From assembly GCF_024584785.1 (NCBI RefSeq), contig NZ_CP074112.1, positions 1,798,001-1,862,000 on the forward strand: 64,000 bases of DNA. Reading direction: 5' to 3'. The notes under the pieces were generated by a model, which worked only from the letters and a program-made list of their open reading frames with translations, did no database searches and had not been told where the DNA came from. Each line of letters opens with the position of its first letter. Position 1 is the first letter of the stretch. Source of the DNA: Idiomarina loihiensis. Its GTDB lineage: Bacteria; Pseudomonadota; Gammaproteobacteria; Enterobacterales; Alteromonadaceae. Positions 34,761-63,892 of the stretch are shown piece after piece. Position numbers and translations under genes: made by a program.

Positions 34761-35261
34761 TTATGATCGCCGAATTTGGCTAAATTCAAACTGCGTTTCA
34801 ACTTCTTGTTGTAACCAATTGAGCAGCACAATACAGCGGCTTTCACCATCTAACCCTATGATTTGCGCCATGAATCCTTTAAACGGGCCTTCGGTGATTT
34901 CTACCTGTTCACCAATTTGTGGCATGGCTGCAGCTGTAGCTTTTTGAATGGTGCTAGACTGCGCATTAAGTTGCGCCATCTCGGCAATCAGAGCGTCGGG
35001 CACTGTCGCAGGGCGCTCGCCAAAGGTTAATAACTTGGTGACCCCAAAGGTGCTGCGAACCTTGTGAAACTTCCCGGCATAATCATCCAGTTGCGCAAAC
35101 ACATAGCCCGGAAACAAAGGCTCGGTAACGGGAGTACGCTTGCCACGGCGAATTTTCTGCAGCGTGATTTGCGGAAAAAAGGTCTCAATCTCTTGGTTCT
35201 CAAGATTCAGTTTGGCCCGGCTTTCTTGGCGTGGCTTGGTGCGTACTACGTACCAGGTCAT
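34761..35261 (-). CDS. rfaH: Transcription antitermination factor RfaH
   Basis: NusG paralogue that binds paused RNA polymerase at ops and promotes elongation and translation of long operons. 166 residues from the ATG at 35261 (AGGAG upstream): NGN domain starting MTWYVVRTKPRQESRAKLNL, EPLFPGYVFAQLD, then a linker and a KOW-type C-terminal domain (IGEQVEITEGPFKGFMAQI). The length and the sequence FFPQITLQKIRRGKR favour RfaH over NusG. A longer frame to 35348 only translates an upstream REP and is rejected. Gene is on the same strand and upstream of an ops site. Confidence 0.95.
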   Translation of the reverse strand: MTWYVVRTKPRQESRAKLNLENQEIETFFPQITLQKIRRGKRTPVTEPLFPGYVFAQLDDYAGKFHKVRSTFGVTKLLTFGERPATVPDALIAEMAQLNAQSSTIQKATAAAMPQIGEQVEITEGPFKGFMAQIIGLDGESRCIVLLNWLQQEVETQFEFSQIRRS

Positions 35262-35288
35262 GGTAGCTCCTGCTGGTTGATGTTCCTG

Positions 35289-35346
35289 GAGGAACTGTCG
35301 GCCCCAGCTACGGACCTGGGTCCGTAGCTGGGGCCGCAAGTCCCTC
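35289..35346. repeat. REP palindrome, copy 1 (pgi-rfaH junction)
   Basis: Outer arms GAGGAACTGTCGGCCCCAGC and the reverse complement of GCTGGGGCCGCAAGTCCCTC, with a nested ACGGACC/GGTCCGT centre. It lies between the pgi stop and rfaH, about 30 bp before the rfaH start codon, and touches the last codons of pgi. It makes a very stable hairpin in the rfaH leader. Confidence 0.9.
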
Positions 35347-36841
35347 ACATGCGGCGGATGATGCTGTCGGTGCTGGCGTCGAAGGTGGTGTCGGTTTGGC
35401 CGTCAATCACCTTCAGGATATCGGTGGCGCAGGTTTTGCCTTTTTCGACGCCGGGCTGATCGAAACTGTTGAGGCCCCAAATCACGCCTTGAGTAAACAC
35501 CTTATGCTCGTATGCGGCAATGATAGCACCAAAGCTATGAGGGGTTAACTCATCCACGTACAACAAATTGGTCGGATGATTGCCGATATAGGTGTGGCGG
35601 GCGTCGTCGCTATTATGCCCTTCCCACATAAGTTTGCGGTGGGCTAAGCAGTTACTTACGGCCAGACGTTGCTGTTCGCGTAATGACTCTTGTACGGCGG
35701 TCGTAAAGCCCGGCGCGTGGCGATGCAGCACTGCAATAAAATCAGCGGTGAAGGTATCCCAACCTTGGTGCAGATGCTGGAAGAATGCGTGCTGCCCGTT
35801 CGGACCGTAACCGCCCCAGATGATAGGACCGGTCGGGGTAGTTAGCGGCTGGTTGTCATGGGTGGCTTGCTTGCCGTTACTTTCCATATCCAGCTGCTGC
35901 ATGTAGCTGGGCAGGTAACGCAGGCGACCGTCGTAAGGCAAAATGGCGACGTTGTTGATGTTGCGCTGCTCGCGGTTGTATACGCCAAGTAGCGCCAGCA
36001 ACACCGGAATGTTCTGGATTGGGTCGTCCACTTCAGCGAAGTGCTCGTCCATGGCTTTGGCGCCGTCCAGCATTTTGCTGAATTGGTTGGTGCCGATGGT
36101 CAGCGCAATCGGCAGGCCAATCGCCGACCACATGCTGAAGCGTCCACCTACCGAATCAGCAAAGCTCAGTTGTTGGCTGGGCGGGATGCCGAAATCTGTC
36201 ATGGCTTGGTTGTTGGCGCTAACGCCAATCACGTGCCGACTCAGCCATTGCTCTTCGGTTAGGTGCGGCTGCAGCCACTGTTTTACGGTGTTGACGTTTG
36301 CCAAGGTGTCGATGGTACCGAAGCTTTTGCTCGCGATAATAAACAATGTGGTTTCAGGGTCGATGATGGGCAGCACCGCGTACAGCTGCCCGCCATCCAT
36401 CGAGCTCACAAAATGGGTGTGCAGCGTGTGCAGGCTATTGTCGTCGGCGAATTCTTTGAGCGCAAACGAGCCCATCATGGGGCCTAAGTCGGAGCCACCT
36501 ACGCCGATATTGACCACGTCCGTAATAGGTTTACCGGTAGCACCCAGCCACTGGCCGCTGCGCAGGCTACGAACGATTTCAGTGAAGCGATTCTTACCAT
36601 TACCGGCTTTCACCACATTGTGAATGCTGCGGTTGAGCACGTGGCTGACGTTACGGTTCTCGGTTTTGTTCTGGAATTGGCCTTTCATCAGCTGCTGTTT
36701 CAGCTTGGTGAAATTGGCCGGCAGCTTGGTTTGGGCGTATTCGGTGATCTGCTCAGGGGTAAGTCCCTGATAGCTGTAATCGAGGTTCAGAAATTCCGTT
36801 TCGACGGTGTAGGTCGTGGTAGTCGGGGTGTTGTTGACCAT
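35345..36841 (-). CDS. pgi: Glucose-6-phosphate isomerase
   Basis: Interconverts glucose-6-P and fructose-6-P; here probably feeds nucleotide-sugar synthesis as well as glycolysis. 498 residues from the ATG at 36841 (AAGGAGC upstream). Recognisable blocks: NIGVGGSDLGPMM, SKSFGTIDT, SVGGRFSMWSAIGLP (signature), DMESNGK and NSFDQPGVEKGK (active-site Lys). The segment WGGYGPNGQHAF has Gly344 where the E. coli/rabbit enzyme (WGEPGTNGQHAF) has its catalytic Glu. The protein is about 50 residues shorter than E. coli Pgi. The longer frame to 36919 is REP-derived and rejected. Confidence 0.93.
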   Translation of the reverse strand: MVNNTPTTTTYTVETEFLNLDYSYQGLTPEQITEYAQTKLPANFTKLKQQLMKGQFQNKTENRNVSHVLNRSIHNVVKAGNGKNRFTEIVRSLRSGQWLGATGKPITDVVNIGVGGSDLGPMMGSFALKEFADDNSLHTLHTHFVSSMDGGQLYAVLPIIDPETTLFIIASKSFGTIDTLANVNTVKQWLQPHLTEEQWLSRHVIGVSANNQAMTDFGIPPSQQLSFADSVGGRFSMWSAIGLPIALTIGTNQFSKMLDGAKAMDEHFAEVDDPIQNIPVLLALLGVYNREQRNINNVAILPYDGRLRYLPSYMQQLDMESNGKQATHDNQPLTTPTGPIIWGGYGPNGQHAFFQHLHQGWDTFTADFIAVLHRHAPGFTTAVQESLREQQRLAVSNCLAHRKLMWEGHNSDDARHTYIGNHPTNLLYVDELTPHSFGAIIAAYEHKVFTQGVIWGLNSFDQPGVEKGKTCATDILKVIDGQTDTTFDASTDSIIRRM

Positions 36842-36856: not shown

Positions 36857-36926
36857 GAGGAACTTGCGGCCCCACCTCTGGACCCGGCTCCGGAGCCGGG
36901 TCCAGAGGTGGGGCCGCAAGTCTCTC
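36857..36926. repeat. REP palindrome, copy 2 (ugd-pgi junction)
   Basis: A nearly perfect 70-bp palindrome: arm GAGGAACTTGCGGCCCCACC, inner TCTGGACCCGGCTCCGGAGC, then its mirror. It fills most of the 106-bp gap between ugd and pgi and lies just before the pgi ribosome-binding site. It is the longest and most symmetrical copy. Confidence 0.92.
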
Positions 36927-38148: not shown

Positions 38149-38190
38149 GAGGGGGTGTCGGCCCCAGCTAGGGAGCTGGGGCCGATAGTT
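38149..38190. repeat. REP palindrome, copy 3
   Basis: GAGGGGGTGTCGGCCCCAGC, short centre TAGGGA, then GCTGGGGCCGATAGTTC. The inner stem (38158-38185) is a perfect 11-bp arm pair; the outer arms have diverged. It lies in the leader of ugd. Confidence 0.85.
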
Positions 38191-38317
38191 CGTCTATCCC
38201 TCTCGTTCGTTCAGCGAGCAAATAGTAAACTTTGTAAATTTGTTAACACATGGTGGCTATTGTATGGCGCAGGCGCAGCTAGCGCAAGAGGCTTGTGTGG
38301 GAGTTTGACGGACCCGT

Positions 38318-38375
38318 GAGGGACTTGCGGCCCCAGCTACGGACCCAACTCCGCAGCTGGGGCCGCAAGTTCCTC
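38318..38375. repeat. REP palindrome, copy 4
   Basis: GAGGGACTTGCGGCCCCAGC at the left, centre TACGGACCCAACTCCGC, mirror GCTGGGGCCGCAAGTTCCTC at the right. The arms pair perfectly over about 19 bp. One of three copies just upstream of the RAYT gene. Confidence 0.9.
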
Positions 38376-38452: not shown

Positions 38453-38510
38453 GAGCTGGGGTCAGCCCCACCTACGTAGCAGGCTCCAGAGGTGGGTCTG
38501 CAAGTCCCTC
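38453..38510. repeat. REP palindrome, copy 5 (degenerate)
   Basis: GAGCTGGGGTCAGCCCCACC, centre TACGTAGCAGGC, right arm GAGGTGGGTCTGCAAGTCCC. The left outer arm is eroded, the right is intact. It ends 36 bp before the RAYT start codon, so the copy may influence its expression. Confidence 0.8.
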
Positions 38511-38546: not shown

Positions 38547-39278
38547 ATGTCGCGTAGAAATCGGTATCGAGGCGCTGGAATTACTCAGCATATTTATGAT
38601 CGTGGTAATAACAAACAGATTATTTTTGTCGACGACATTGACCGAGCTGCTTTTATGTCGAGTCTGTTTACCCGCGCGGCTGATTATGAAATTGCCTTAC
38701 ACGCGTGGGTGCTGATGTCGAATCATTTTCATATTCTGGCCACGCCTAAACATCCGGGTGCCATCAGCAAGTTTATGCAAGCGGTGAAAAGTAGCTACAC
38801 CCAGTATTTTAATTCGCGGCATTCACGCACCGGCACCTTGTGGGAAGCGCGATTCAAACAAGCGCTGTCACAAGACGACAACCACATTCTGATTCTCTAT
38901 CGATATATCGAGCTTAATCCTGTTCGCGCCGGCATGGTTAGAGGGCCCCGGCAATATCATTGGAGTAGCTACCATACCAACGCGCGGTTAGTGCCGAGCG
39001 AAAACATCACACCGCATCCATATTATCTGCTGCTAGGCATTGATGAGTTTACCCGCGCTCAGGCTTATCGGAATTACGTGGCAGGAAGTTTTGATAAAGA
39101 TAAATCGCAGTATGAAGCGGAAGTTGCGGTGCTAAAAACGACAGCCGCGAACTTAGCAGTATTTGGCAGTGAAGAGTTCTACAAGAAGCTTTCGGCGGAG
39201 ATTGACTACCCAATCACCCATTTTCAGCGGCTCACTATCCTCGCAGAGCGCTATGCCGCCGAAGAAGACGAGCTTTGA
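38547..39278 (+). CDS. REP-associated tyrosine transposase (RAYT, Y1/IS200-like HUH)
   Basis: Single-copy, domesticated-type HUH nuclease that nicks and moves REP hairpins as single-stranded DNA. 243 residues: YRGAGITQHIYDRGNNKQII at the N-terminus, HUH motif NHFHILATP (about residues 63-71), catalytic tyrosine in FMQAVKSSYTQYFN, then GTLWEARFKQALSQDDNHIL and YIELNPVRAGMV, the standard RAYT order. No IS200 ends flank it; instead REP copies 3-5 precede it and copy 6 overlaps its stop codon. It is the only plus-strand gene between 2.7 and 52.3 kb. Confidence 0.95.
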   Translation: MSRRNRYRGAGITQHIYDRGNNKQIIFVDDIDRAAFMSSLFTRAADYEIALHAWVLMSNHFHILATPKHPGAISKFMQAVKSSYTQYFNSRHSRTGTLWEARFKQALSQDDNHILILYRYIELNPVRAGMVRGPRQYHWSSYHTNARLVPSENITPHPYYLLLGIDEFTRAQAYRNYVAGSFDKDKSQYEAEVAVLKTTAANLAVFGSEEFYKKLSAEIDYPITHFQRLTILAERYAAEEDEL

Positions 39279-39322
39279 GGGACTTGCGGACCCAGCTCCG
39301 TAGCTGGGGCCGCAAGTTCCTC
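39277..39322. repeat. REP palindrome, copy 6 (overlaps RAYT stop)
   Basis: GAGGGACTTGCGGACCCAGC, centre TCCGTA, mirror GCTGGGGCCGCAAGTTCCTC; a compact 46-bp form. The TGA stop of the RAYT uses the first two REP bases. It separates the convergent RAYT and mscS genes and may act as a 3' hairpin for both messages, although no T-run follows. Confidence 0.92.
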
Positions 39323-40217: not shown

Positions 40218-41042
40218 TTACCAGTTAAACGGGATACGCCCTTGACTATCAGGTTGTCCGATAAAACTAACCATTTCTGCCACCGGCTGTGGCGCTTGTG
40301 TGGTGGGCTTGATGCTGCCTGCCACGGATAACTGGGGACGCCCCATCGAGCCCTGCACTTTGGCCTCGACGATAAGTCCTAACCAATTGTTATCCTTGAT
40401 TGTAGCAGATATTGACTGGTTAGCGGTACAGCCCAAGTGTAAGCGATAGTCTCCAAGAGCGTGCCAAGCTTGATTCAGCCGAATTTCGCTGGAGGTCCAA
40501 TCTAACCTGCCTTGCATGCTATCGCAGAAACGACCGCTCGCCGTGTTGCGATTACTGTACTCATCCAGCTGCAACTGCCACTCGCCCGCCACCGTCAATG
40601 GCACCGGCAAGCGCAACTGATTCACCGACGCCTGCACATTGCCCGCCAGCTCACCACTGAGTTGAAGGACTTGCAGACCCACCTCCGGACCCTGCTCCGT
40701 AGCTGGGGCTGCAAGTTCCTCATCGGCGCTAGCAGCGACCAGCTGCACTTGGCCTTCGAATACGTTGCCGGCGGGGATGCTGAGTTGTAGGTCGAGTTTG
40801 CCCAGCAGCAGCGCCAGTGGGCTGAGCTGCCATTCTACTTGCTCGAGGTTGAGGCTGGCACCGGTGGGCAGTTGCGCCTGTAGGTTCATGGTGCCGCGCC
40901 ACAAGGTACCTTGCAGTGGCGTGATGTGGGTGCCGGCTGGCAGGGCATCATTAGCAAGGCTGAGCCAACGCGCTGGGGCAGTGGCGAGTAAAATAATCAG
41001 ATACAGCGGCAGTAACCACCACCATAATTTAAATAACTTCAT
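40218..41042 (-). CDS. gspN: Type II secretion system protein N, with REP-encoded insertion
   Basis: Accessory inner-membrane protein of the T2SS. One N-terminal TM helix (LWWWLLPLYLIILLATAP) then periplasmic sequence with LPAGTHITPLQGTLWRG, typical of GspN. The ATG at 41042 is chosen; a GTG at 41060 would overlap gspM. Residues about 108-126 (ELAAPATEQGPEVGLQVLQ) are translated REP copy 7, inserted in frame without a stop. Last gene of the gsp operon. Confidence 0.88.
   Translation of the reverse strand: MKLFKLWWWLLPLYLIILLATAPARWLSLANDALPAGTHITPLQGTLWRGTMNLQAQLPTGASLNLEQVEWQLSPLALLLGKLDLQLSIPAGNVFEGQVQLVAASADEELAAPATEQGPEVGLQVLQLSGELAGNVQASVNQLRLPVPLTVAGEWQLQLDEYSNRNTASGRFCDSMQGRLDWTSSEIRLNQAWHALGDYRLHLGCTANQSISATIKDNNWLGLIVEAKVQGSMGRPQLSVAGSIKPTTQAPQPVAEMVSFIGQPDSQGRIPFNW
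40664..40721. repeat. REP palindrome, copy 7 (inside gspN)
   Basis: GAAGGACTTGCAGACCCACC, centre TCCGGACCCTGCTCCGT, right arm AGCTGGGGCTGCAAGTTCCTC. Slightly diverged arms. It lies wholly within the gspN reading frame, in frame and without stops. Confidence 0.88.
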
Positions 41043-41049
41043 CTTGGGC

Positions 41050-41574
41050 TTAAGCTCCACTTACTTGTAAACGCCGCACTCGCACCACACCTGGCTCGTT
41101 CGCCGCCACCGCATCTACTTGCTCAACGGTTAGGCCGGCTTGGCTTTGCAATTGCTCTATCAGGCGCAGCAGGGTGTTAAATTCGATGCTATCAATCACC
41201 ACAATCAGGCTGTTGGATTGCGGCTGCATGCGGGTGATTTCGATTTGGTTGCGACTGGCCAGTTGCGTGACTCGCTCGCTTAAACCGCCGCGGATGCTAG
41301 CGTTAGGTGCGGTGCTAGCTGTAGCGCTTGCCCCTTGGCCTTTAGCGGCCAGATAGCGACCGGTGTTTTCACGTACCCATTGCAGCAGCTCTTGTTGCGC
41401 TTGAATCTGCAATTGACGGTCGCGCTTGCCATCGGCAATCGGTTTATAGGCTAGAAAATACAGCAGGGTGATGAGGAATAACGAACCGCACACCACCACC
41501 AGCAGCCGCTCGCGCGAGTTCAGCTGGTGATAACGTTCTTGCCATGGCGCTAATGTCTTGTTGATAAAATCCAT
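41050..41574 (-). CDS. gspM: Type II secretion system protein M
   Basis: Inner-membrane platform protein that partners GspL. 174 residues from the ATG at 41574 (AGGAA 8 nt upstream, 19 nt after the gspL stop); the longer frame to 41637 overlaps gspL and is rejected. N-terminal TWQ-type segment LAPWQERYHQLNSRERLL, one TM helix (VVCGSLFLITLLYFLAY), then a ferredoxin-like periplasmic domain. An alanine/serine-rich linker (about 75-90) is present. Confidence 0.93.
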   Translation of the reverse strand: MDFINKTLAPWQERYHQLNSRERLLVVVCGSLFLITLLYFLAYKPIADGKRDRQLQIQAQQELLQWVRENTGRYLAAKGQGASATASTAPNASIRGGLSERVTQLASRNQIEITRMQPQSNSLIVVIDSIEFNTLLRLIEQLQSQAGLTVEQVDAVAANEPGVVRVRRLQVSGA

Positions 41575-41593
41575 AGATGTTCCTGTGTTGCTC

Positions 41594-42883
41594 TTAGCCT
41601 GCACGTTTGATGGTGAGGTTGCCGTTAATCGCGCCATCTTGGTTACTGGTTGGCCCCTGCTCTACGCTTACCTGGCCGCCTTGGTTGGCTACTTTTCTAA
41701 AGTTTTCGAGGCTGGCAAAGCTTTCGGCACGTACTTGCAAGCGTAAGGTGTTGGCGTCGTAGCGCACCAACTCTAGTTTAATGTCTTGCTGTGCGTTAAA
41801 GGCGGGCTCGAGTGCTTGCAGCAAAGTAAGTGGTGACTCACTTGCGCCCTGACCTCCGATACCACTGAGGTGTTGATTCAGCTGGCTGCGTACATTAACG
41901 ATACGGGTTTCGTTCGGGAACACGCCTTTATAAGTGTCTTCAATGGCTTGTTGCAAGGCGGTGGATTGCTGCCCTAATTGCACGTATTCAATCACTTGGC
42001 TGGCATAACCTAGCACCACCAAAATGCCGGCGGCGATGGCGGCTGATTTGTATTTAAAACTGCCGCCGCTGCTCTTTTTGCGTACCGGCTTGTAGCTGTG
42101 TTGACGGAGGTTTATCGGAGCGATTTGGCGCTGATAACGTACGTTGGCTTTCTTTTCATCAGCACTGGTATCAGTGTCGGCATCAGTGCTGGCATCAGTA
42201 TCGTTCAGTTGGTTATTGTAGGTCAGCGCCATCAACGAAAGCGGGTGCTCAAGGTTGGCTGTTGGATCAATCAACGTGGCTTGTTGCTCGCCTACTAGCT
42301 GCTCAAGCAACATCTGCGCGATGGCAGGCTCGGCACTAAAACCGCTGTATGCCCCGGTGCGCACCAGCTGCTCTTTGCCGAGTGGCCCTTCGATAATACA
42401 GGTGGTGATGATGGCTTCGGGCGTTGCTGCCACCGGCAGCATAAAGCTGTCGGCGTACATGGCATCAACGCTTAAACCCTGTGCTTCAAACGCCGCCAAC
42501 CATTGCTCCATTTTGTCGTGGGCAACCACGTTTACCGGTATCGGCCCTTGGTGCTTGCGCGCCAGGTTTGGCCAGCAAAAATGTAAGTCAGCGATATCCT
42601 GCGCTAGTTCGTCTTCTAAGGTGTTGGGGATAACTTGCGCTAGCATGCGCATGGCCGAAGCCGGCAGCTCTACTTGCGTTTGCAGCACTTCGGTGCTGGG
42701 CACATAGGCAATCAGGCGCCGCGTGCGCGCTTGCTCAGTTAATTGCGCCAATTGTTGCGGCTGACTTATTTCGCCGCTGGCAATCACCTCGCGCTGGCCA
42801 ACATTCCAGCACAGCCACTGCGCTCCAAGCAAGGGCTCGGCACTGGGGGCGTTAGCACTAAGGCGAATAAATAGCTGTTCCAT
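41594..42883 (-). CDS. gspL: Type II secretion system protein L
   Basis: Links the cytosolic ATPase GspE to the membrane. 429 residues: actin-like cytoplasmic domain (LFIRLSANAPSAEPLLGAQW at start; LAQVIPNTLEDELAQDI), a Thr/Asp-rich linker (TDASTDADTDTSADEK, about 225-240), a TM helix (about 276-295) and a periplasmic ferredoxin-like domain. Its ATG overlaps the gspK stop by one base (TAATG). Confidence 0.94.
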   Translation of the reverse strand: MEQLFIRLSANAPSAEPLLGAQWLCWNVGQREVIASGEISQPQQLAQLTEQARTRRLIAYVPSTEVLQTQVELPASAMRMLAQVIPNTLEDELAQDIADLHFCWPNLARKHQGPIPVNVVAHDKMEQWLAAFEAQGLSVDAMYADSFMLPVAATPEAIITTCIIEGPLGKEQLVRTGAYSGFSAEPAIAQMLLEQLVGEQQATLIDPTANLEHPLSLMALTYNNQLNDTDASTDADTDTSADEKKANVRYQRQIAPINLRQHSYKPVRKKSSGGSFKYKSAAIAAGILVVLGYASQVIEYVQLGQQSTALQQAIEDTYKGVFPNETRIVNVRSQLNQHLSGIGGQGASESPLTLLQALEPAFNAQQDIKLELVRYDANTLRLQVRAESFASLENFRKVANQGGQVSVEQGPTSNQDGAINGNLTIKRAG

Positions 42884-44016
42884 TACGGCTCTCCTAACCC
42901 GCGATACAGTACTTGGGTCTGCTCGTTGGTAATTAATAACTGGCTATGCGCATCGATTTCAAGGTCGCCGACCGTAATGCGGCTATGGACCTCAAAATAT
43001 TTGCTTTTTACATCAAAATCTTCCAGCGCCCCACCAAGAACCTCATTGGTGACGCTAGGATCTCGCGGGCCACCGCCTAAATTTGGCCGAATTTGCCCTT
43101 GGGCGGCGTTATTCAGTACGCCATTGCCCTTAGCGTCTTCCACTGATTCATAGCCGGCTTGCGGACGATTATTAATAAAGCTTTTCGCATCTTCAAGGCT
43201 GAGCGCGCCTAAGCTCACGGCATGCAGCAAGTTCGCTTGCTCTGACGATACCGTATTAAGATTAATCTTCAAGCTGTTATCCCGTGGGATAACGCATACG
43301 TACGGCTTGATTTTGTGGTACAGCGGTGCGGTTACCCCGCGCACTAATCTAAATTCACTGATATGGTTCAGCCATGTATTACCGGCATTGTGCGGAAACT
43401 GCTGACTCTGATAGTCACTGGTTTCGGCGCCATAGGTACCGCTACCACCGGTACCTATGTCATCATCAGGATCTAACCAATCGGCCAGTGAATCCACTAT
43501 CACATCCACTGCGTAGGCTTCCATGCTGTCGTCGATTGCCATCAGCAACATGCGCAGTTGCGCTTTACGCCGTACTAAGCGCATTTTGGTGGCTTCATCT
43601 AGCGCGCTGCCGTCTATGCCGCCGGGGTTGTTATTATCATTACTAGTAACCATGCGTAAAGAATTCAGGTTAAAGCAGCTGTGTAAATCTTTAATGCGCC
43701 CGGCAATGCTGCCTCCCACCACGGGAAAGGCCACGCCGTTTTGGCTTTGCTGATACCACACTTGGTCTTGGCTGGCGATGCCTTCGCTATCGGCTAATTC
43801 GCGTTGTAATAATTCTCGTACCACTTCTTCGGCGCTTAAGCTGTACCAATAAGCTTGCTCTGCTTGTTGTAAATTGCCGGTGCGTAGAACGCTAGTTTGT
43901 AAGCGCCCACTTAAGCTAATAGCCAGCACGCTCACTAAGGCGACTACTAATAGCACCATTAACAGCGCTACTCCGCGCTGGCGTGAAGGAAGCTGCGCCC
44001 TAACTGCCCTAACCAT
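42883..44016 (-). CDS. gspK: Type II secretion minor pseudopilin GspK
   Basis: Large minor pseudopilin capping the T2SS pseudopilus. About 377 residues; prepilin cleavage context RQRGVALLMVLLVVALV with Leu at the usual Glu5 position, as typical for GspK. The long alpha domain with DWLDPDDD and NLNTVSSEQANLLHA is characteristic. The ATG at 44016 has AGGTG 8 nt upstream; a GTG at 44025 is the alternative. Overlaps gspJ by 8 nt. Confidence 0.94.
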   Translation of the reverse strand: MVRAVRAQLPSRQRGVALLMVLLVVALVSVLAISLSGRLQTSVLRTGNLQQAEQAYWYSLSAEEVVRELLQRELADSEGIASQDQVWYQQSQNGVAFPVVGGSIAGRIKDLHSCFNLNSLRMVTSNDNNNPGGIDGSALDEATKMRLVRRKAQLRMLLMAIDDSMEAYAVDVIVDSLADWLDPDDDIGTGGSGTYGAETSDYQSQQFPHNAGNTWLNHISEFRLVRGVTAPLYHKIKPYVCVIPRDNSLKINLNTVSSEQANLLHAVSLGALSLEDAKSFINNRPQAGYESVEDAKGNGVLNNAAQGQIRPNLGGGPRDPSVTNEVLGGALEDFDVKSKYFEVHSRITVGDLEIDAHSQLLITNEQTQVLYRGLGEP

Positions 44017-44674
44017 TACCGTCACCTGGTTGTTGCTGCTGCTCGGCTTCGCGGCGCTGAGTTTCTTCTACTTCGCTCATTGGCGTCAGTAACAACACCC
44101 GTTCAATCACGCCCCAGCTGTTGGTGTGCACGCGCAGCAGCAGTGCTGGCGGTAATTCGCCGGTGGCTCGTTGGCTTTGAATATTGCGGCTACTACCAAA
44201 CTCGTTGGCCTGGTCATTGAGTTCTTTGCTGTAGCCTAAGAACTCGACTTCTAGCGCGGTGACGCCTTCTAACATCGGCCGTTTGGTAAAGGAGTCTTCG
44301 CCATCGGCTACATCCACAAAGATCGCTGATTGCCGCCACAAGGTGTCCTCTTCAATGCTGTAGACAACCGGCTGCAATTCGCTGCGCGGAAAGATGCCAG
44401 CGGGGTTAAACCAACCGCTGCGGACAAAAGCTAACAGGTTTTCTTCGGCTAAGAGATAGAAATCGGTGCTGGTTTGGCGCGGTACTATGTGGCGGATATC
44501 TTGCTCAATCAGCAGCATGGTGTATTGCAGTTGTTCTAATTGGGCAATGGCTTGTTCGCTTTGCTCGCTGGTGCGCATCATGGCGTTCACCACGGCAGCG
44601 CTGGCTAGCCCGATTACCGCCATAATGGCAACCGTAACCAGCACTTCAACTAAGGTAAAACCAGCGCGGCGCAT
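44009..44674 (-). CDS. gspJ: Type II secretion minor pseudopilin GspJ
   Basis: Minor pseudopilin of the tip complex with GspI and GspK. 221 residues from the ATG that overlaps the gspI stop (TGATG). Prepilin motif MRRAGFTLVEVLVTVAIMAV; QLEQLQYTMLLIEQDIRHIV and YSIEEDTLWRQ are typical. The C-terminus is Gln/Glu-rich (EAEQQQQPGDGNG). Confidence 0.95.
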   Translation of the reverse strand: MRRAGFTLVEVLVTVAIMAVIGLASAAVVNAMMRTSEQSEQAIAQLEQLQYTMLLIEQDIRHIVPRQTSTDFYLLAEENLLAFVRSGWFNPAGIFPRSELQPVVYSIEEDTLWRQSAIFVDVADGEDSFTKRPMLEGVTALEVEFLGYSKELNDQANEFGSSRNIQSQRATGELPPALLLRVHTNSWGVIERVLLLTPMSEVEETQRREAEQQQQPGDGNG

Positions 44675-45111
44675 CAGTCGTCCCACTCGTTATTATTCAC
44701 CGAGCGTTGATCGGTGGCAGATTGGGGGCCTAAAAAGCGTGCTAACTGATGCAACTCGCGGGCATCTGCAGACGGGCCACTAATCACAGAGCTTTCTTGG
44801 CGCGGCTCGTACACACTCACCACTACTTGATAGACGCCAGCAGTGGCTGTTTTGCTGACACTGGCGCGCCACGGCCAATACTGGTCAGCGATCAGCTCAC
44901 TGCCGCTGTCACCATTCTCCGGTGGATAAGCTAGGGTCATGCGCGCTAACGCATTAGACGCGGCTAAGCGCGCCATAGTTTTTTCTTGCATGTAACTGAG
45001 GTTGCTCAGATGCTGACTAGAGGCCATCACCGCTGCCGTTGCTGCGAGCGCAAAGATGCTCAAGGCAATCATTACCTCCACCAAGGTGAAGCCGCGTGCT
45101 AACCTAGTCAT
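44674..45111 (-). CDS. gspI: Type II secretion minor pseudopilin GspI
   Basis: Minor pseudopilin. Prepilin motif RGFTLVEVMIALSIFALAA, then SNLSYMQEKTMARLAASNAL, as in GspI. ATG at 45111 preferred to a GTG at 45114; overlaps the gspH stop by 8 nt. 145 residues, a little longer than E. coli GspI because of a C-terminal extension. Confidence 0.94.
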   Translation of the reverse strand: MTRLARGFTLVEVMIALSIFALAATAAVMASSQHLSNLSYMQEKTMARLAASNALARMTLAYPPENGDSGSELIADQYWPWRASVSKTATAGVYQVVVSVYEPRQESSVISGPSADARELHQLARFLGPQSATDQRSVNNNEWDD

Positions 45112-45778
45112 CACGTACTCGCTCGAGGCTTAGCGCTAGGCCATCGCTGCTGTGAATGCGCCATGCGGTACCGGCGCGCAGCGCAAAATCATCCTGCAGC
45201 ACCAGCTCAAAGGGCTGCATCTCGCCACTGCCAAAAATCATCAGTTGCGGCATTGGCTCGCTTTTGCGGCTTGCTCGCGCGCCTCGGCCCGCTTCATCGT
45301 CACCCGACTGTAATACATTGCCCCGAGCACTGCCATTGCTGGAATTACGATCCCCACTAGCAGTACTAGTAGATGAACTGGCGAAAGCGTCATCTTCAAC
45401 TCCAAAAATATCCACTAAATCTATGTCTTCTTGCTCAAGTAGGGCAAGCTCGGTACTACTAATTTGCATCGAAAGCTGTTGATCTAACTGATGCGGACGT
45501 AACCCTCGTTCGTTGATGTTCTGCCAAATGCCATCGCGGTACTGCACAAAGCGATAGCTGATGCCGTCATCAATACGTAGGCCTAAAATGGCATGACGCA
45601 CCAGCGCATAGTCGCGGGCGTAGTTTAACCTTTGATACAGCATCCGCGCTTGGTCTTCGACACTGGTATCACGCCGATCGGGCACCACAAAGCTGACGGT
45701 AAGGGCCAACATGGCAATAACCGCCAAAGTGACCATCACTTCAATTAAGGTAAAACCGCGGCGGCGCTGCATTCCCAT
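45104..45778 (-). CDS. gspH: Type II secretion minor pseudopilin GspH
   Basis: Minor pseudopilin. Prepilin motif RRRGFTLIEVMVTLAVIAML, then QARMLYQRLNYARDYALVRH. 224 residues, longer than the usual 160-200: a Ser/Gly/Asp-rich insertion (about 130-172, starting ASSSTSTASGD) precedes the conserved C-terminal strands (MIFGSGEMQPFELVLQ). This insertion is not REP-derived. Confidence 0.94.
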   Translation of the reverse strand: MGMQRRRGFTLIEVMVTLAVIAMLALTVSFVVPDRRDTSVEDQARMLYQRLNYARDYALVRHAILGLRIDDGISYRFVQYRDGIWQNINERGLRPHQLDQQLSMQISSTELALLEQEDIDLVDIFGVEDDAFASSSTSTASGDRNSSNGSARGNVLQSGDDEAGRGARASRKSEPMPQLMIFGSGEMQPFELVLQDDFALRAGTAWRIHSSDGLALSLERVRDD

Positions 45779-45794
45779 CAGTTACTGGTATCCG

Positions 45795-46214
45795 CTACTG
45801 ATCAAGGTTCCAGTTGCCGATATCGTCATCGGTACCAGGTTGACGATCTTCGCCGGCTGAAAAAATATCGATATCGCCATTCTCGCCCGGGCTAAGTAAG
45901 AGATAATCGCTCCCGTACGGGTCTTTCGGTAGGCGTTTAATGTAGCCACCACGGCGATAGTTACGCGGCGCTGGCTCGCTGGTTGGCTCGTTCACTAAAG
46001 CCTCTAAGCCTTGCTCAGTAGTAGGAAACAAACCGTTATCTAGGCGATACTGCGCTAAGGCATTCTCGAGCGAGATAATATCGGTTTTGGCTTTTTGGCG
46101 GTTGGCCTGTTCACCGGCACCTAACACGTTGGGCAAAATCAACGAGGCTAAAAGACCCAAGATGGCGATAACTACCATCACTTCGATAAGACTAAAACCT
46201 GTTTGTTTTTTCAT
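45795..46214 (-). CDS. gspG: Type II secretion major pseudopilin GspG
   Basis: Main subunit of the pseudopilus piston. 139 residues from the ATG at 46214 (AGAGGTG upstream). MKKQTGFSLIEVMVVIAILG carries the prepilin peptidase site and Glu5; NRQKAKTDIISLENALAQYR and the C-terminal calcium loop DIFSAGEDRQPGTDDDIGNW are classical GspG features. Confidence 0.97.
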   Translation of the reverse strand: MKKQTGFSLIEVMVVIAILGLLASLILPNVLGAGEQANRQKAKTDIISLENALAQYRLDNGLFPTTEQGLEALVNEPTSEPAPRNYRRGGYIKRLPKDPYGSDYLLLSPGENGDIDIFSAGEDRQPGTDDDIGNWNLDQ

Positions 46215-46241
46215 CGGATTCACCTCTAATAACAAGAATAA

Positions 46242-47534
46242 TTACAAGCCGACGCTTTGATTAAGCGCCAAAATCGGCTGAATAATAGCTAGTACAATTA
46301 ATAAGACCACGCCGGCCATGCCAACGATCAGTGCTGGCTCAAATATTTTTAGCGCAACGTTCATGGTGGTCTCAAAATCACGGTCTTGGTTATCCGCAGC
46401 CCGCCCGAGCAATTGCTCGAGTTCACCGGATTTTTCACCGGCCGCAATCATGTGCAGCATCATCGGCGGAAACAGTTTGCTCTGCGCCAAGGCGGCGCGC
46501 AAGCTACTGCCCTCGCGTACGCGGTCGCAGGCTTCGTCGATGGCGATTTGCATAGCGCGGTTGGTCATCACCTTGCCAGTAATTTTCAGCGCATCTAACA
46601 AAGGCACCGCCGACGCCGCTAAGATACTAAGGGTGCGAGCAAAACGTGCGGTATTCACGGCCTTGATCACCCGCCCCACTAACGGCACTTTCAATACAAA
46701 CGCATCAAATTTATCGCGCCGTTCAGGTTTGCGCAGCAATTGTCCGCCCACTGCTAACCCGAGCAAGATCATAATCAAGGCGATCAGCCCATAGGCTTGT
46801 AAGAATTCGCTGGCCGCCAGCAAGAACCGGGTGGTAGCTGGCAAGGCTTGGTCTAGGTCGCTGAATTGTTCCACGATTTGTGGCACCACGCTCACCAATA
46901 AGAAGATAACCACGCCTATCGCCACTAAGGTCATGATGGCGGGATAAACCAGCGCTTGCACCAACTGCCCTTTGAGGCGGTTGCGTTGCTCGGTGTAATC
47001 AGCCAAGCGGTTCAGCACCTCGCCAAGATGGCCCGAGCGTTCGCCAGCGGCCACCATTGAGGTGAATAACTTATCAAACACATGGGGGTATTCGGCCATG
47101 GCTTCGGCCAACGAATAGCCTTCCACAACCTTGGAACGCACCGCCATCAGCAGCTTCTGCAAGCGCACCTTATCGGTTTGTTCGGATACCGCAAACAACG
47201 CCTGCTCCAGTGGTAACGCTGCACTTACTAAGGTGGCCAACTGGCGCGTGATCAGCGCCAAATCGCCGGCACTTACCCCACGCGTCTGCAACCTGGTTAA
47301 TAGCGAGGGACTTGCGGACCCAGCTCCGGACCCGGCTGCGGAGCGAGCTCCAGAGCTGGGGCTGACAGTTTCTCCACGGGCGCGGCTGCGTCCTTGCTCG
47401 GCGAGCTCGACGCTGACCGGGATCAGCCCTTGCTCGCGCAGTTGCGAGCGCACTTGGCGCTCGGTATCGGCTTCAATCACGCCTTTGGTTTTACGGCCAC
47501 TGGCATTCAGTGCCTGAAATGCATATGCTGCCAC
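46242..47534 (-). CDS. gspF: Type II secretion inner-membrane platform protein GspF, with REP-encoded insertion
   Basis: Polytopic platform protein. 430 residues with two T2SSF domains (about 90-215 and 295-420), GERSGHLGEVLNRLADYTEQ and GEKSGELEQLLGRAADNQDR as the duplicated motif, and three TM helices. Start is GTG with GAGGAG 7 nt upstream. Residues about 54-77 (GETVSPSSGARSAAGSGAG...) are translated REP copy 8, sitting in the variable linker between the short N-terminal domain and the first T2SSF domain. Confidence 0.95.
   Translation of the reverse strand: MAAYAFQALNASGRKTKGVIEADTERQVRSQLREQGLIPVSVELAEQGRSRARGETVSPSSGARSAAGSGAGSASPSLLTRLQTRGVSAGDLALITRQLATLVSAALPLEQALFAVSEQTDKVRLQKLLMAVRSKVVEGYSLAEAMAEYPHVFDKLFTSMVAAGERSGHLGEVLNRLADYTEQRNRLKGQLVQALVYPAIMTLVAIGVVIFLLVSVVPQIVEQFSDLDQALPATTRFLLAASEFLQAYGLIALIMILLGLAVGGQLLRKPERRDKFDAFVLKVPLVGRVIKAVNTARFARTLSILAASAVPLLDALKITGKVMTNRAMQIAIDEACDRVREGSSLRAALAQSKLFPPMMLHMIAAGEKSGELEQLLGRAADNQDRDFETTMNVALKIFEPALIVGMAGVVLLIVLAIIQPILALNQSVGL
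47305..47374. repeat. REP palindrome, copy 8 (inside gspF)
   Basis: GAGGGACTTGCGGACCCAGC, a nested CCGGACCCGGCTGCGGAGCG centre, then GAGCTGGGGCTGACAGTTTC. Double-hairpin (long) form, about 70 bp, in frame in gspF. Confidence 0.88.
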
Positions 47535-47537
47535 GCC

Positions 47538-49100
47538 CTACTCCTCGCGCGTTACCCGCAACACTTCTTCTAAAGTGGTGCGGCCTTGCAGCACCTTAGC
47601 TAAGCCGTCGTCACGGATGCTGGGAGCGTGTTTGCGGGCATATTTTTCGATAGCTTGTTCACCATGTCCGCTGTGGATAAGTTCACGGACTTTCTCGTCC
47701 ACCACCAACAGCTCATGGATACCGGTACGGCCGCGATAGCCGGTGTGATTACATTTGTCGCAGCCCACCGCACGGTACAAGGTTGCGCCTTTTTTCTTTT
47801 TAATCTCAAAGGCATCAGCCACGTAGGCCAGTTCGTCTGCGGTGGCTTCGTAGGCTTCTTTGCAGTCGTCGCACAGAGTACGTACTAAGCGCTGCGCCAG
47901 TACCGCCAGTAACGACGACGACAGCAAGAAGGGCTCCACGCCCATGTCTTCTAGCCGCGAAATGGCGCCGGCGGCGGTGTTGGTGTGCAACGTAGAGAGT
48001 ACCAAGTGCCCGGTTAACGAGGCCTGTACGCCAATTTGTGCGGTTTCTACGTCGCGGATCTCACCCACCATCACCACGTCTGGGTCTTGCCGCAAGATAG
48101 CGCGCAAGCCACGGGCAAAGGTCATATCAACTTTGGCGTTTACCTGCATTTGGCCGATGCCTTCGATGGAATATTCAATCGGGTCTTCAACGGTCAAAAT
48201 ATTTCGGTCGCGCGAATTAATTTCCATCAAGCCGGCGTATAAGGTGGTGGATTTACCCGAGCCGGTGGGCCCGGTCACCAAAATGATGCCGTGTGGCTTG
48301 TTAATCAACTGCGAAAAGACCTTGCGGTTGGCTTCGGTCATACCCAGTTGTTCGAGGTTCAAACGCGCATTATTTTTGTCGAGCAAGCGTAGTACCACCC
48401 GCTCGCCATGGTTGGATGGCATGGTTGATACCCGCACATCTACGGCACGGCCGGCAATCAGCAAGCTAATACGGCCATCTTGTGGCACCCGCTTTTCTGC
48501 GATATCCAGCTGCGCCATGACCTTAATGCGTGACACCAACAGCGAGCTTAACTTGCGATTGGGGCGAATGATTTCGCGCAGTACGCCGTCTATCCGAAAG
48601 CGCACCAACAGTTCTTTTTCAAAGGTTTCGATATGGATATCTGAGGCGCCTTCTTTGATCGCCTCAGACAACATGGCGTTGATAAGCTTGATGATGGGCG
48701 CATCGTCTTCGCTTTCTAATAAATCTTCGGTTTGCGGTAGCTCATCGGCTAACGAGAATAGGTTGCTTTCGTTACCTATGTCTTCCATCAGCTGTTTCGC
48801 TTCAGACGAATCGCGCTGATAGGCTTGGGTGAGGATGGCCTCAAACTCGTCGTTAGGGTGATACTCAATGGCAAAGCTACGCCCGAGCACCCGCCGTACT
48901 TCAAGCAAGGTGTGGGGGCTAACGCCCTGGCGCGCATGCACCACCGGCTTACTCGTGACCTCGGTGGATTCGTCGGCGGCTACATCAGTATTGTCAGGCG
49001 CGGACGCCGGCATGGCCACTATCACTCCGTGACGCTTCGCAAACGCAAAAGGCAACCGCTTCGGTGCCACTTGCGCGGCAACATCAGCGATATCAGTCAT
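47538..49100 (-). CDS. gspE: Type II secretion ATPase GspE
   Basis: Hexameric secretion ATPase. 520 residues: T2SSE N-terminal domain (about 60-160), Walker [15 protein letters not shown], Asp and His boxes, Walker [17 protein letters not shown], and the zinc-binding tetracysteine CDDC...[12 protein letters not shown]. Overlaps the gspD stop by 8 nt (coupled) and is followed by gspF after 3 nt. Confidence 0.97.
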
Positions 49101-51243
49101 TGTTGTTACCTTCTGTGGAGGAACTTGCAGACCCAGCTCCGGACCTGGCTCCAGAGGTGGGGCTGACCCCCTCCTCCAACCCCTGCTCCCAGTTCGGTGG
49201 CAAGATCAGCTCATCATTGTATGCTGGCAGGCGCGGCTGTGAGGTGAGTGGCATCAAGGCGATGCCCTCTTCGTCGCGCTGCAATTGCTGGGCCCGAATA
49301 AAGTTGTATTTACGGCTAGAGATCTGGCTTGCTACGCCACTATCGCGCACAATGCGGGGCCGTAAAAATACCATCAGGTTACGTTTTTGACGGGTGGTTG
49401 AGGTGCTCTTAAAGAGGTTGCCCAACCAAGGAATATCACCGAGCAATGGCACTTTGGAGACGGACTCTTGCACGTCTTCGTCAATCAGGCCGCCCAGCAC
49501 GATGGTTTCGCCGTCTTCAGCCATCACCACGGTGCTCAGCTCACGTTTGTTGACAATGATATCGACGCTGGTAGCCCCACTGATGCTGGACACTTCCTGC
49601 TCAATCACCAATTGTACGGCGTTACCTTCGTTGATTTGTGGGGTGACTTTAAGCTTAATACCTACGTCTTCACGCTCTACTGTCTGAAACGGATTGTCGT
49701 TACTAGAGCCGGTGGTTGAGCCGGTAATAGTAGGTACCGATTGGCCCACCAAAAACGAGGCTTCTTCGTTATCCAAGGTCATGATGCTGGGCGTGGCCAA
49801 GATGTTCGAGTTGGTGTTGCTGCTCACCGCTTGAATGATGGCGCCCCAATCGTTACGCAATACGCCTACCATCATGCCGTTCACGTTACCTAACACCTGC
49901 GCTAACAACGAGGCATCGCCGGGAGTATCCGGCTGACTGGTGGTTAACGGGTTGCCGGCATTGTCTATCTGGGTGGTGGTGGTTCCTTCACGCTCGCGCG
50001 CCATGTAAGCCCCCAAAGCGAGCTGACCGATAGGCGCTTGCCGACCGTTGTTGTATTGCACCATACCACCGTCTTCGCTAATCCATTGCAGGCCTAAATC
50101 GATGCCATCGCCTTCCATGATTTCTACGATAATGGCTTCTACATGCACTTGGGCGCGGCGAATATCCAACTGCCGAATCACGCTTTCTAGGCTAGTCAGC
50201 AAATCAGGCGCAGCGGTAATAACCAACGAGTTGCTGGCTTCGTGGGCGCTGATGCTGATTTCGGCGCTGCTGCCACCGGTGCGGCGCGCGGCTGCGGCTG
50301 GCACTGTGCCACCACCCGAGGCGGCTTTTTCTGCTTGTAAGCTTTGGCTCACGCCTTGCAATACGTCCACTAAATCTGGCGCCTTAGCATATTTCAGGTA
50401 ATAGACGCGGGTGTTACCTTCGGTTTTCAAATCTTGATCGAGCTGGTTGATGAGTTTGACCACTCGCTCGCGGGCGCGCGGCTCACCACTAACCACCACG
50501 CTGTTGGTACGTTCGTCGGCAACGATTTTAGGAATCAACAACGCAGGCGAGCCATCGTTGGCTTTTTCAAATAAAGCCGAGGCAATCCGCACCACCTCTG
50601 AGGCCGACGCGTACTCGAGTTTAATCACTTCAACGTCTTGGTTTCCGGCACGGTCGACGCGCTCAACAATCTCCACAATACGCTGCACAGTCTCGCTGCG
50701 GCCAGTAATGATCAGCACGTTCGACGAATCGTAGTTGACCACGTTGCCGCCGCCGGCTTGGTCGTTCAGCAACCGCAATAATGGCGCTAGCTCACGTACG
50801 GCCACGTTTTGCACCGGCACCACGCGGGTGATCAAGGTATCGCCACCTAACGAGTTATCGTCAACTACCGGAATGGCACCGTTGCGTGCGTCTTTGTCGC
50901 GCATCACTTTAATCACCCCAGACTCCATGGTGACCGTTGCAAAGCCGTGCACTTCTAAGATATTCAAAAAGAACTGCCAGTATTGCGATTCAGTCATCAC
51001 ATCGTAGCTACGCACATCAATGCGGCCGCGCACGTCAGGATCGATGATGATGGTTTTGCCGAGGTTACGGCCCACCACCTGAATAAACTCAGTGATTTCG
51101 GTGTTTTTAAAGCTGGCCGTATATTCCACCGGTTTATCTTGAGCCTGCCGTGCAGCTTGCGCGAAGGCTTGCTCAGGAGCGGTGTAGGCAGCGCCGAGCG
51201 CGAGGCCCAAGGCGATAGCGACCGAAAGTGAGGTTTTACGCAT
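49093..51243 (-). CDS. gspD: Type II secretion secretin GspD, C-terminus extended by REP
   Basis: Outer-membrane secretin. 716 residues from the ATG at 51243 (AAAGGA upstream; another ATG at 51258 overlaps gspC). Signal peptide to AFAQA, N0-N3 domains ([40 protein letters not shown]), secretin domain with [17 protein letters not shown]. The last 30 or so residues include [20 protein letters not shown], which is translated REP copy 9, at or beyond the S-domain. No GspS pilotin gene is present in the window. Confidence 0.96.
49118..49176. repeat. REP palindrome, copy 9 (3' end of gspD)
   Basis: GAGGAACTTGCAGACCCAGC, centre TCCGGACCTGGCTCCAGA, right arm GGTGGGGCTGACCCCCTCC. The right outer arm has diverged. 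It encodes part of the GspD C-terminus and lies 18 bp before the gspE start. Confidence 0.86.
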
Positions 51244-51257
51244 ACGGGTTCCTTTCA

Positions 51258-52208
51258 TTACTCTTCACCTTGCGGTAAATCATTGATATCTAATCGCAAG
51301 TCGATGTATTCAGTGCCGCGCACCACGGTGACAGTGGCAGCGGTCATGGTCGCCAACTCATTAGTTAGTTTGATGGCGGTGGCGATGTTGGTTAAATCTT
51401 GGCCATTGATAGCCACGGCTAAATCGCCGCTTTTAAACCCGGCTTGGTTAAACAGCGCGGGGTTGGCTCCGGGCGAGAGGCGATAGCCTTTTAAGCCGCT
51501 ACCTTCGCGCACCGGCGCTATCCGAATAAAAGTAAGCAAGGCTTGCGCTTTGGCTTGGGCAGCGCCTTCAAGCTGTGGGCCAGGGTCAGTGGCGGGCACG
51601 CCGCGGTCGGTTGCCGTAGGCGGTAAGCCACCGGCGACGGGCCCGGCTGCAACGTTGGCGCCGGCTTGATTGTTGTTACGCTGCATGTTCGCCATGGTCA
51701 GCGATAAGCCTTCGCTTAACTCACCTATGCCTTCTAGCTCTAAGGTTTCTAAGCGACCGTTGTTATCTAAGATCACGCGGTCGGCGTAAATTTCGTGAAT
51801 ACCCACCTGCGTGCCCGATAGTTTTTCGCCCACCACATAGACTTCTTGTTTACCGGTACGTTCAATGATGGCGGCCGAACGGGCTGGGTTGGAAGATGCC
51901 GACACCCCCAGCAAGCGTACATTCAAGGTGGTTTTGGGAGCGTTCTGAGCGGCTACTTGTTGCTGTTGTTTGACCTCGGCGCTGCCAAATAATTGCAGCC
52001 GCACGAGGCCACTGATGCTTGGCGCAACGTTGCTATTGGCACTGGCTGGCTGGCGAATCGGGCCGGTTGGCACCTCCGCGCGAGGTGTGATCAGCTGCCA
52101 GGTGAGCTGGGCGGCAAACCACACGGCAACGACGGCACATACGGCGGTAATAAGGCTGTTGCCGTAACGCTGCAACAGGGCAACGGCTTGATTATTCTGT
52201 ATCTGCAT
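51258..52208 (-). CDS. gspC: Type II secretion protein GspC
   Basis: First gene of the operon. Inner-membrane protein contacting GspD. 316 residues: TM helix (about 20-40), HR domain (LFGSAEVKQQQQVAAQNAPKTTLNVRL split over about 70-130; RSAAIIERTGKQEVYVVGE), and a C-terminal PDZ domain (GYRLSPGANPALFNQAGFKS, then AVAINGQDL). Divergent from hslO over a 151-bp gap that must contain the operon promoter. Confidence 0.95.
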   Translation of the reverse strand: MQIQNNQAVALLQRYGNSLITAVCAVVAVWFAAQLTWQLITPRAEVPTGPIRQPASANSNVAPSISGLVRLQLFGSAEVKQQQQVAAQNAPKTTLNVRLLGVSASSNPARSAAIIERTGKQEVYVVGEKLSGTQVGIHEIYADRVILDNNGRLETLELEGIGELSEGLSLTMANMQRNNNQAGANVAAGPVAGGLPPTATDRGVPATDPGPQLEGAAQAKAQALLTFIRIAPVREGSGLKGYRLSPGANPALFNQAGFKSGDLAVAINGQDLTNIATAIKLTNELATMTAATVTVVRGTEYIDLRLDINDLPQGEE

Positions 52209-57032: not shown

Positions 57033-57119
57033 TAGCTGTTAGCTGTTAGCTATTGGATATTACAAAACCCGTTGCCGCAGCTGCTCGTGCCTAATGTCTA
57101 ATAGCTAATGTCTAATAGC
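57033..57119. repeat. Heptamer repeat arrays in inverted pair (hisS-yfgM gap)
   Basis: 57033-57062 reads TAGCTGT TAGCTGT TAGCTAT TGGATAT TA. 57091-57119 reads, on the other strand, TATTAGA CATTAGC TATTAGA CATTAG. The two arrays face each other across 28 bp. The second includes the hisS stop codon: the last sense codons of hisS (GAG CGC TAT) belong to the repeat. Related arrays lie at 59603-59660. Confidence 0.8.
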
Positions 57120-59555: not shown

Positions 59556-59602
59556 GGGTTACCTATTTGAGTTCAAATTCGATAGTTAAATACAAGAGCG
59601 AT

Positions 59603-59660
59603 GTTAGCTATTAGATATTGGATATTAAAATACCAGAGCGCTGTTAGCTATTGGATATTA
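59603..59660. repeat. Heptamer repeat arrays (ispG-rodZ gap)
   Basis: Two direct copies: 59603-59627 (TTAGCTA TTAGATA TTGGATA TTA) and 59643-59660 (TTAGCTA TTGGATA TTA), each preceded by GAGCG(A/C)TG. The same GAGCG plus heptamers occurs in inverted form at the 3' end of hisS. Same family as 57033-57119. Confidence 0.8.
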
Positions 59661-59694
59661 GGGCTGCCGGTTCCTAGCTGATCGCTGTTGGTGG

Positions 59695-63846: not shown

Positions 63847-63892
63847 GAGGAACTTGCGGACCCAGCTCCGGAGCTGGGTCCGCAAGTCTTTC
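63847..63892. repeat. REP palindrome, copy 10
   Basis: GAGGAACTTGCGGACCCAGC, centre TCCGGA, mirror GCTGGGTCCGCAAGTCTTTC. The most perfect compact copy, 46 bp. It lies upstream of ndk, about 24 kb from the RAYT gene. Confidence 0.92.

Follow-up and report, generated by a model that had tools for sequence, protein, structure and literature searches.

REP elements read in frame within several genes of a type II secretion operon that adjoins a RAYT-like transposase gene

The window, i.e., the whole stretch of 64,000 nucleotides that was analysed, corresponds to positions 1798001-1862000 of a 2.90-Mb genome assembled as one contig (G000 in comparisons with relatives). Present in it are a type II secretion system (T2SS) operon, the genes of which overlap or nearly abut, a RAYT-like transposase gene approximately 1 kb from gspN, and REP elements located between as well as within genes. 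The features concerned, numbered from the first position of the window, are:

35289-35346, REP in the first 20 codons of ORF 34761-35348 (minus strand), the start of which is probably downstream
36857-36926, strand not given, 70-nt REP between two genes, overlapping the upstream extension of a 524-aa ORF
38149-38194, strand not given, intergenic REP with divergent ends
38318-38375, strand not given, intergenic REP
38453-38510, strand not given, REP left of the RAYT gene
38547-39278, plus strand, RAYT-like transposase gene (243 aa, NHFH motif)
39277-39322, strand not given, REP right of the RAYT gene, touching its stop codon
40664-40721, minus strand, REP in gspN (ORF 40218-41060, minus strand), coding for EELAAPATEQGPEVGLQVLQ
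47305-47374, minus strand, REP in gspF (46242-47534, minus strand), in the linker ahead of the first T2SSF domain
49118-49175, minus strand, REP at the 3' end of gspD (49093-51258, minus strand), coding for part of the C-terminal tail
63847-63892, strand not given, intergenic REP

The product of the RAYT-like gene matched Pfam Y1_Tnp above cut-off (8.4e-12) and NCBIfam REP_Tyr_transpos below the cut-off of 80 (7e-21, 74.7 bits), and the gene is flanked by the same REP on either side. This REP has the form GAGGAACTTGCGG(A/C)CCCAGCTCC GGAGCTGGGTCCGCAAGTTCCTC, lengthened by 12-nt steps. The half-site ACTTGCGGMCCCAGCTCCGGA, allowing no more than three mismatches, was matched 15 times in the window and not once in 100 shuffles. 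Genome-wide, two patterns combined gave 22 loci of this short palindrome, with 59 and 38 matches to the true patterns compared with 5 and 2 for reversed-pattern controls. The GTAG tetranucleotide that precedes the palindrome in REPs of relatives G007, G008 and G018 was absent from the printed copies of this genome's REPs when these were inspected by eye; some published REP families, e.g., the TIR type, are described without this tag (PMC3733652).

Eight of the 22 loci were inside ORFs, namely gspN, gspF, gspD, a histidine-kinase-like gene, a TPR protein gene with two copies, an NtrC-type regulator and rlmA, while 14 were outside ORFs or at their edges; gene models for this count, and for the counts of element spans and reading frames below, were the longest non-overlapping ORFs as opposed to annotated genes, and a ninth ORF (L004) with a REP near its start was omitted. 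The TPR protein gene is probably mshN, judging from its domains. In the regulator, also named from its domains, the REP lies between the AAA lid and the Fis domain. The REP in rlmA accounts for 16 residues within the Zn_ribbon_RlmA match, and each of the four rlmA matches found among 11 relatives searched had a shorter loop at this place. For the histidine-kinase gene, the relatives contained only weak homologues (best E 5.5e-7), none of which covered the insert.

As proposed by the sequence-only reading of this DNA, the REPs in gspN, gspF and gspD are in frame and without stops, the ORFs spanning all three copies, and the identities given to these genes were borne out by matches to T2SSN (5e-30), T2SSF (1.8e-60) and Secretin (1.4e-52), respectively. 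Inserted residues number 18-24 per copy. Those of GspN (residues 114-133 in the numbering of the GTG-started ORF) lie inside the T2SSN match (40-274). Those of GspF (residues 54-77, GETVSPSSGARSAAGSGAGSASPS) end before the match at 96-218 and so precede the first T2SSF domain, while those of GspD (residues 697-714, 18 aa, a span set by the motif, the 58-nt copy being slightly longer) lie beyond the end (647) of the TIGR02517 match; both locations agree with the earlier reading, which had placed the latter insert at the extreme C-terminus.

Those relatives that have names place this genome in Pseudidiomarina. GspF was found in 56 of the 59 genomes searched, this one included, T2SS regions were taken from 15 relatives, and the REP-coded residues were marked on alignments of eleven Gsp proteins from ten species. 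Throughout the ten species, a REP-like peptide at a T2SS site was always accompanied by REP DNA. Homologues without the REP motif were also without the peptides, and the extra residues of GspD, GspF and GspN were absent from them; the finding that the earlier reading had named as a sign of chance resemblance, the same peptide segments in homologues free of REP DNA, was not seen. The insert of this genome in GspN corresponded to a clean gap in the nine other aligned species. The GspF insert is common to more than this genome, as REP DNA occurs in the same linker in six sister species (G012, G017, G019, G011, G022 and G024), and in these species parts of GspD, E, F, J, K, L, M or N were coded by REPs, distributed as follows:

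GspD tail: G000, G012, G017, G019
GspE N-terminal region: G012, G017, G019
GspF linker: G000, G012, G017, G019, G011, G022, G024
GspJ: G012, G017, G019, G024
GspK and GspL: G012, G017, G019, G011, G022, G024
GspM: G024
GspN site 1: G012, G017, G019, G011, G022
GspN site 2: G000 only

The operons of G010 and G021 gave no match to the REP motif, and those of G002 and G009 no REP-like palindromes. A tree of conserved Gsp columns placed G000 and the other six species together, with G010 and G021 next, and branching inside the seven was weakly supported (0.30 and 0.62).

REPs of other families were noted in the same operon. Thus, P. taiwanensis (G025) contained a short REP resembling GAGGGGCAGCCCCTC in the GspD tail, the GspE N-terminal region, the GspF linker, GspN site 1 and elsewhere, although single matches to this short motif with three mismatches may be due to chance. 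In P. salinarum (G007), GTAG REPs occupied a different site of GspE, positions close to the N-termini of GspL and GspI, and the GspJ site also used by the G012 group. A further family in P. mangrovi (G014) was present in GspM and at the N-terminal ends of GspI, GspJ and GspK. Motif sites within 12 kb of operon numbered 13, 6 and 6 for G025, G007 and G014, respectively, compared with no more than one for permuted motifs; part of these sites are intergenic, and the N-terminal extensions may be untranslated. Some T2SS tails and linkers (those of GspD, E, F, J and N) are therefore reused by different REP families.

An AlphaFold2 model of GspN from this genome, 274 residues long, had a mean pLDDT of 91.2; in it the insert (residues 108-127) is a predicted loop with a block value of 67 that joins strands 95-104 and 125-135. 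For GspK of L092, the named copy of G017, pLDDT was below 50 over residues 146-157 and 159-172 of an insert located at approximately 139-177, which is predicted to be a disordered loop. Compared with indel-variable positions in 57-65 REP-free outgroups, four of eight insertion sites were within 3 residues, six within 6 and all eight within 10, a result that depends on width in that the share of all residues qualifying also grows with the width allowed; such outgroup variability lends mild support to tolerance of the insertion sites. The suggestion of the earlier reading that the inserts may be tolerated is supported by their in-frame positions, which, from the species comparison and, for GspN, the predicted structure, are a C-terminal tail, an inter-domain linker and a strand-connecting loop.

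Whole elements of G012, G017 and G019, whether genic or not, spanned 36, 48, 60, 72, 84 or 96 nt, apart from a minority of 59, 71 or 83 nt. Between the ends used for this genome, 15 of 22 loci measured 46, 58, 70 or 82 nt. Orthologous copies differed by whole units, as seen in gspN (36, 72 and 48 nt) and gspL (84, 84 and 72 nt). The preservation of reading frame is attributable to variation mostly by 12 nt; as it is in large part a property of the element, it does not in itself indicate selection. Frame choice, on the other hand, may do so. The element consensus, read by eye, is open in three frames, of which the third is rich in Arg, Leu and Trp, and all 18 full-length copies at internal sites were read in the two hydrophilic frames (P 0.0007). 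Addition of three short copies from the G011/G022/G024 group changed this to 19 of 21 (P 0.013), the exceptions in the third frame being gspM of G024 and a 460-aa ORF of G022. These P values serve as a guide only, since the hydrophilic frames were named after the data had been seen and a site present in several related species was entered a single time, by judgement. The third frame is also found in copies at ORF ends. The count was made without the L004 ORF, whose REP (residues 30-57, first frame) precedes its only domain; ORF 34761-35348 and the PGI ORF of L086, each with a third-frame REP among its first 20 residues that is probably not translated; the upstream extensions of ORFs for RAYT (L075, L079 and L086); an 85-aa ORF of L076; copies partly inside ORFs; and copies at the 3' end of histidine-kinase genes of L073, L082 and L085 (59 or 71 nt, starting in the third frame).

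REP loci were clustered around the RAYT gene in the three genomes counted. In all, 11 of the 22 loci in this genome were within 30 kb of the RAYT gene as opposed to 0.46 expected, or 9 of 20 without the two copies that flank it. The corresponding numbers were 22 of 28 loci within 50 kb (1.08 expected) for G012 and 42 of 56 within 150 kb (6.5 expected, among the 100 matches listed of 115) for G008. A match to PF01797 (Y1_Tnp) was present in 19 of the 26 genomes searched within the genus. Eleven of these 19 had a match no more than 20 kb from gspF, to one side of the operon or the other, and the remaining eight did not. The simplest explanation for the concentration of REPs in the T2SS operon is that a RAYT gene adjoins it, and with nearness as the explanation, a special attraction of REPs to T2SS genes is not needed, though it may also play a part. 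The association was not uniform. Half of the loci in this genome are far from the RAYT gene, and four of eight in-ORF copies are more than 200 kb away. The RAYT gene of G018 is adjacent to the operon, but the operon REPs noticed there are at the gspH-gspI junction. Conversely, G022 and G024 have in-gene REPs yet gave no Y1_Tnp match in the search of 26 genomes; the RAYT of these species has perhaps been lost.

The explanation that we consider probable is that the inserts are REPs, presumably mobilised by RAYT, that landed near the RAYT gene and survived in loops, linkers and tails in hydrophilic frames. Non-autonomous palindromes would thus have been moved by the product of 38547-39278, with new copies coming to rest mainly close to the RAYT gene. 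Because the T2SS operon lies beside this gene and its own genes nearly abut, copies landing there would usually be inside genes. Entry presumably occurred without target duplication, and later gain or loss of units would add or remove whole codons. The survivors would be copies in a loop, linker or tail that are read in one of the two hydrophilic frames. We infer that the REP-coded peptides are translated and that the proteins are made and working.

A smaller number of events is conceivable, though we regard it as the less probable course: shared sites would mostly descend from one old insertion, rewritten in each lineage by gene conversion between REPs or by local turnover of units. Copies of the G012 and G011/G022/G024 groups in gspF, gspK and gspL end, by eye, within 1-3 codons of each other and in the same frame. 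Arm identity was 0.967 and 0.811 between different sites within each group; across the groups it was 0.734 for the same site and 0.728 for different sites, which indicates that the groups have sites in common but not site-specific sequence. These values, however, are also compatible with separate insertions. Frames differ between the two groups at GspN site 1 and between the G012 group and this genome in the GspD tail, and separate insertions are therefore needed at these two places; in addition, other REP families occupy some of the same sites in G025 and G007. The copies in gspF, gspK and gspL of both groups could be old shared insertions that were later rewritten.

An extension of the favoured explanation, RAYT-driven insertion with survival in tolerant positions, appears rather doubtful to us: Pseudidiomarina REPs may have served as raw material for T2SS linkers, in that stop-free palindromes of 12-nt units, adjustable in steps of four residues, would have been taken repeatedly from different families and kept by selection on linker length or flexibility. 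It seems quite unlikely that the in-gene copies were instead kept for a role of the REP as RNA or DNA, such as a hairpin in the T2SS messenger, stability, pausing or protein binding, with the peptide as a by-product. REPs are described as acting at the RNA level (PMC8266576, PMC3733652), and several copies are still palindromic (palindromy 0.96 in the histidine-kinase gene and 0.91 in rlmA), but the T2SS copies are worn (0.79, 0.71 and 0.58) and the frame bias of full-length copies points toward the peptide level; palindromy ranges overlap between the eight genic copies (0.53-0.96) and 11 others (0.58-1.00). Chance resemblance of low-complexity Gly/Ser/Ala/Glu linkers to REPs, which might be imagined as REP-coded peptides are themselves of low complexity and T2SS linkers vary in all species, has a negligible probability and is rejected for the main sites by the 15 half-site matches compared with none in shuffled sequence, by the 4-13 REP sites in operons of five relatives compared with one at most for 60 permuted motifs, and by agreement of the in-gene copies of each lineage with that lineage's own REP motif.

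Intragenic REPs, located in linkers and loops and recurring at the same sites, are already published, including recB of two Xanthomonas species, which was struck at about the same site (PMC3733652). The intragenic GTAG and CGTC REPs of Di Nocera et al. (2013, PMC3733652) are like those described here in being read through in frame in ORFs, in adding tens of residues and in the linkers or loops suggested as locations. According to the parts of that paper available, they differ in occurring in scattered genes, many of them for DNA repair, as opposed to many genes of one operon in many species and by several families, and the REP of this genome has neither tag and is built of 12-nt units. Neither a single operon with this many genes struck by several REP families nor a REP that varies by 12-nt units was found in the accessible portions of the literature searched; T2SS genes may, however, be included in the supplementary intragenic list of PMC3733652.

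Rickettsia palindromic elements (RPE) are likewise palindromic repeats in frame in genes of working proteins (PMC3733652). As with RPE-type insertions, the inserts in the T2SS genes and rlmA are in conserved proteins and missing from homologues. To our knowledge, RPE are longer elements for which no transposase is known, whereas a RAYT gene lies beside the operon here. REPtrons resemble the present case in the concentration of REPs near a transposase gene, e.g., in Marinomonas, where REPs crowd near tnpA-REP (PMC8266576), and in-gene copies are not mentioned in the available text of that report. REPINs (Bertels and Rainey 2011, PMC3116915) are also RAYT-associated, non-autonomous palindromic elements, but are described there, as far as the accessible part goes, as doublets placed at random in extragenic space, compared with the mostly single, regionally clustered and often genic palindromes noted here.

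Occurring in about ten related species, in the presence or absence of RAYT and with several REP families, this operon constitutes a natural series for measuring how REPs spread, how they are tolerated within proteins and how selfish DNA is converted to protein sequence. Their crowding at RAYT bears on how REPs move, and for the T2SS, the in-frame copies provide a map of loops and tails that accept foreign peptides.

In DNA from the relative G022 (stretches L087-L090), intergenic REPs were the short palindrome GGGGTGCAGTCCTTGGACTGCACCCC whereas most of the copies within T2SS genes retained an extra inner unit. No Y1_Tnp match was found in a profile search of this genome.

Pattern searches for GTAG REPs, in which this tetranucleotide precedes the palindrome, gave 115 matches in G008 and 117 in G018. 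The majority of the G008 matches listed formed a cloud (C1, 1.11-1.38 Mb) around a short RAYT-like gene, the median of REP loci among these matches being 1235914 as compared with 1244791 for the gene. The G008 T2SS operon adjoins this gene. In G020 (stretch L060), the GspI and GspJ ORFs had long N-terminal extensions, possibly untranslated, with a repeated peptide encoded by GTAG REPs.

A different Y1_Tnp gene was present on either side of the T2SS operon in both G012 (C9:392571 and C9:410751) and G019 (C4:40373 and C4:23740). The four 149-aa Y1_Tnp matches on C1 of G000, the genome containing the window (at 529860, 596277, 1185205 and 2151120), probably represent an ordinary IS200 element present in several copies.

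A REP insert was also noted in another G000 gene:
L009:1268-2224 (at about 2.67 Mb in the genome), RlmA gene, insert in the zinc ribbon
The insert comprises 16 residues, including one additional Cys.

Other repeats were noted in the window:
57037-57069, 59602-59634 and 59635-59667, a 33-nt repeat beginning TGTTAGCTGTTAGCTATTGGATATT and present three times
59695-61176, minus strand, gene of a presumed RodZ-like protein, tandem repeats at about 59939-60440
The 33-nt repeat is unrelated to the REPs. The tandem repeats, of 12, 24 and 36 nt, encode a long Ser/Thr/Gly/Asn linker and are not REPs; like REP-coded linkers, this linker can change in length by four residues at a time.
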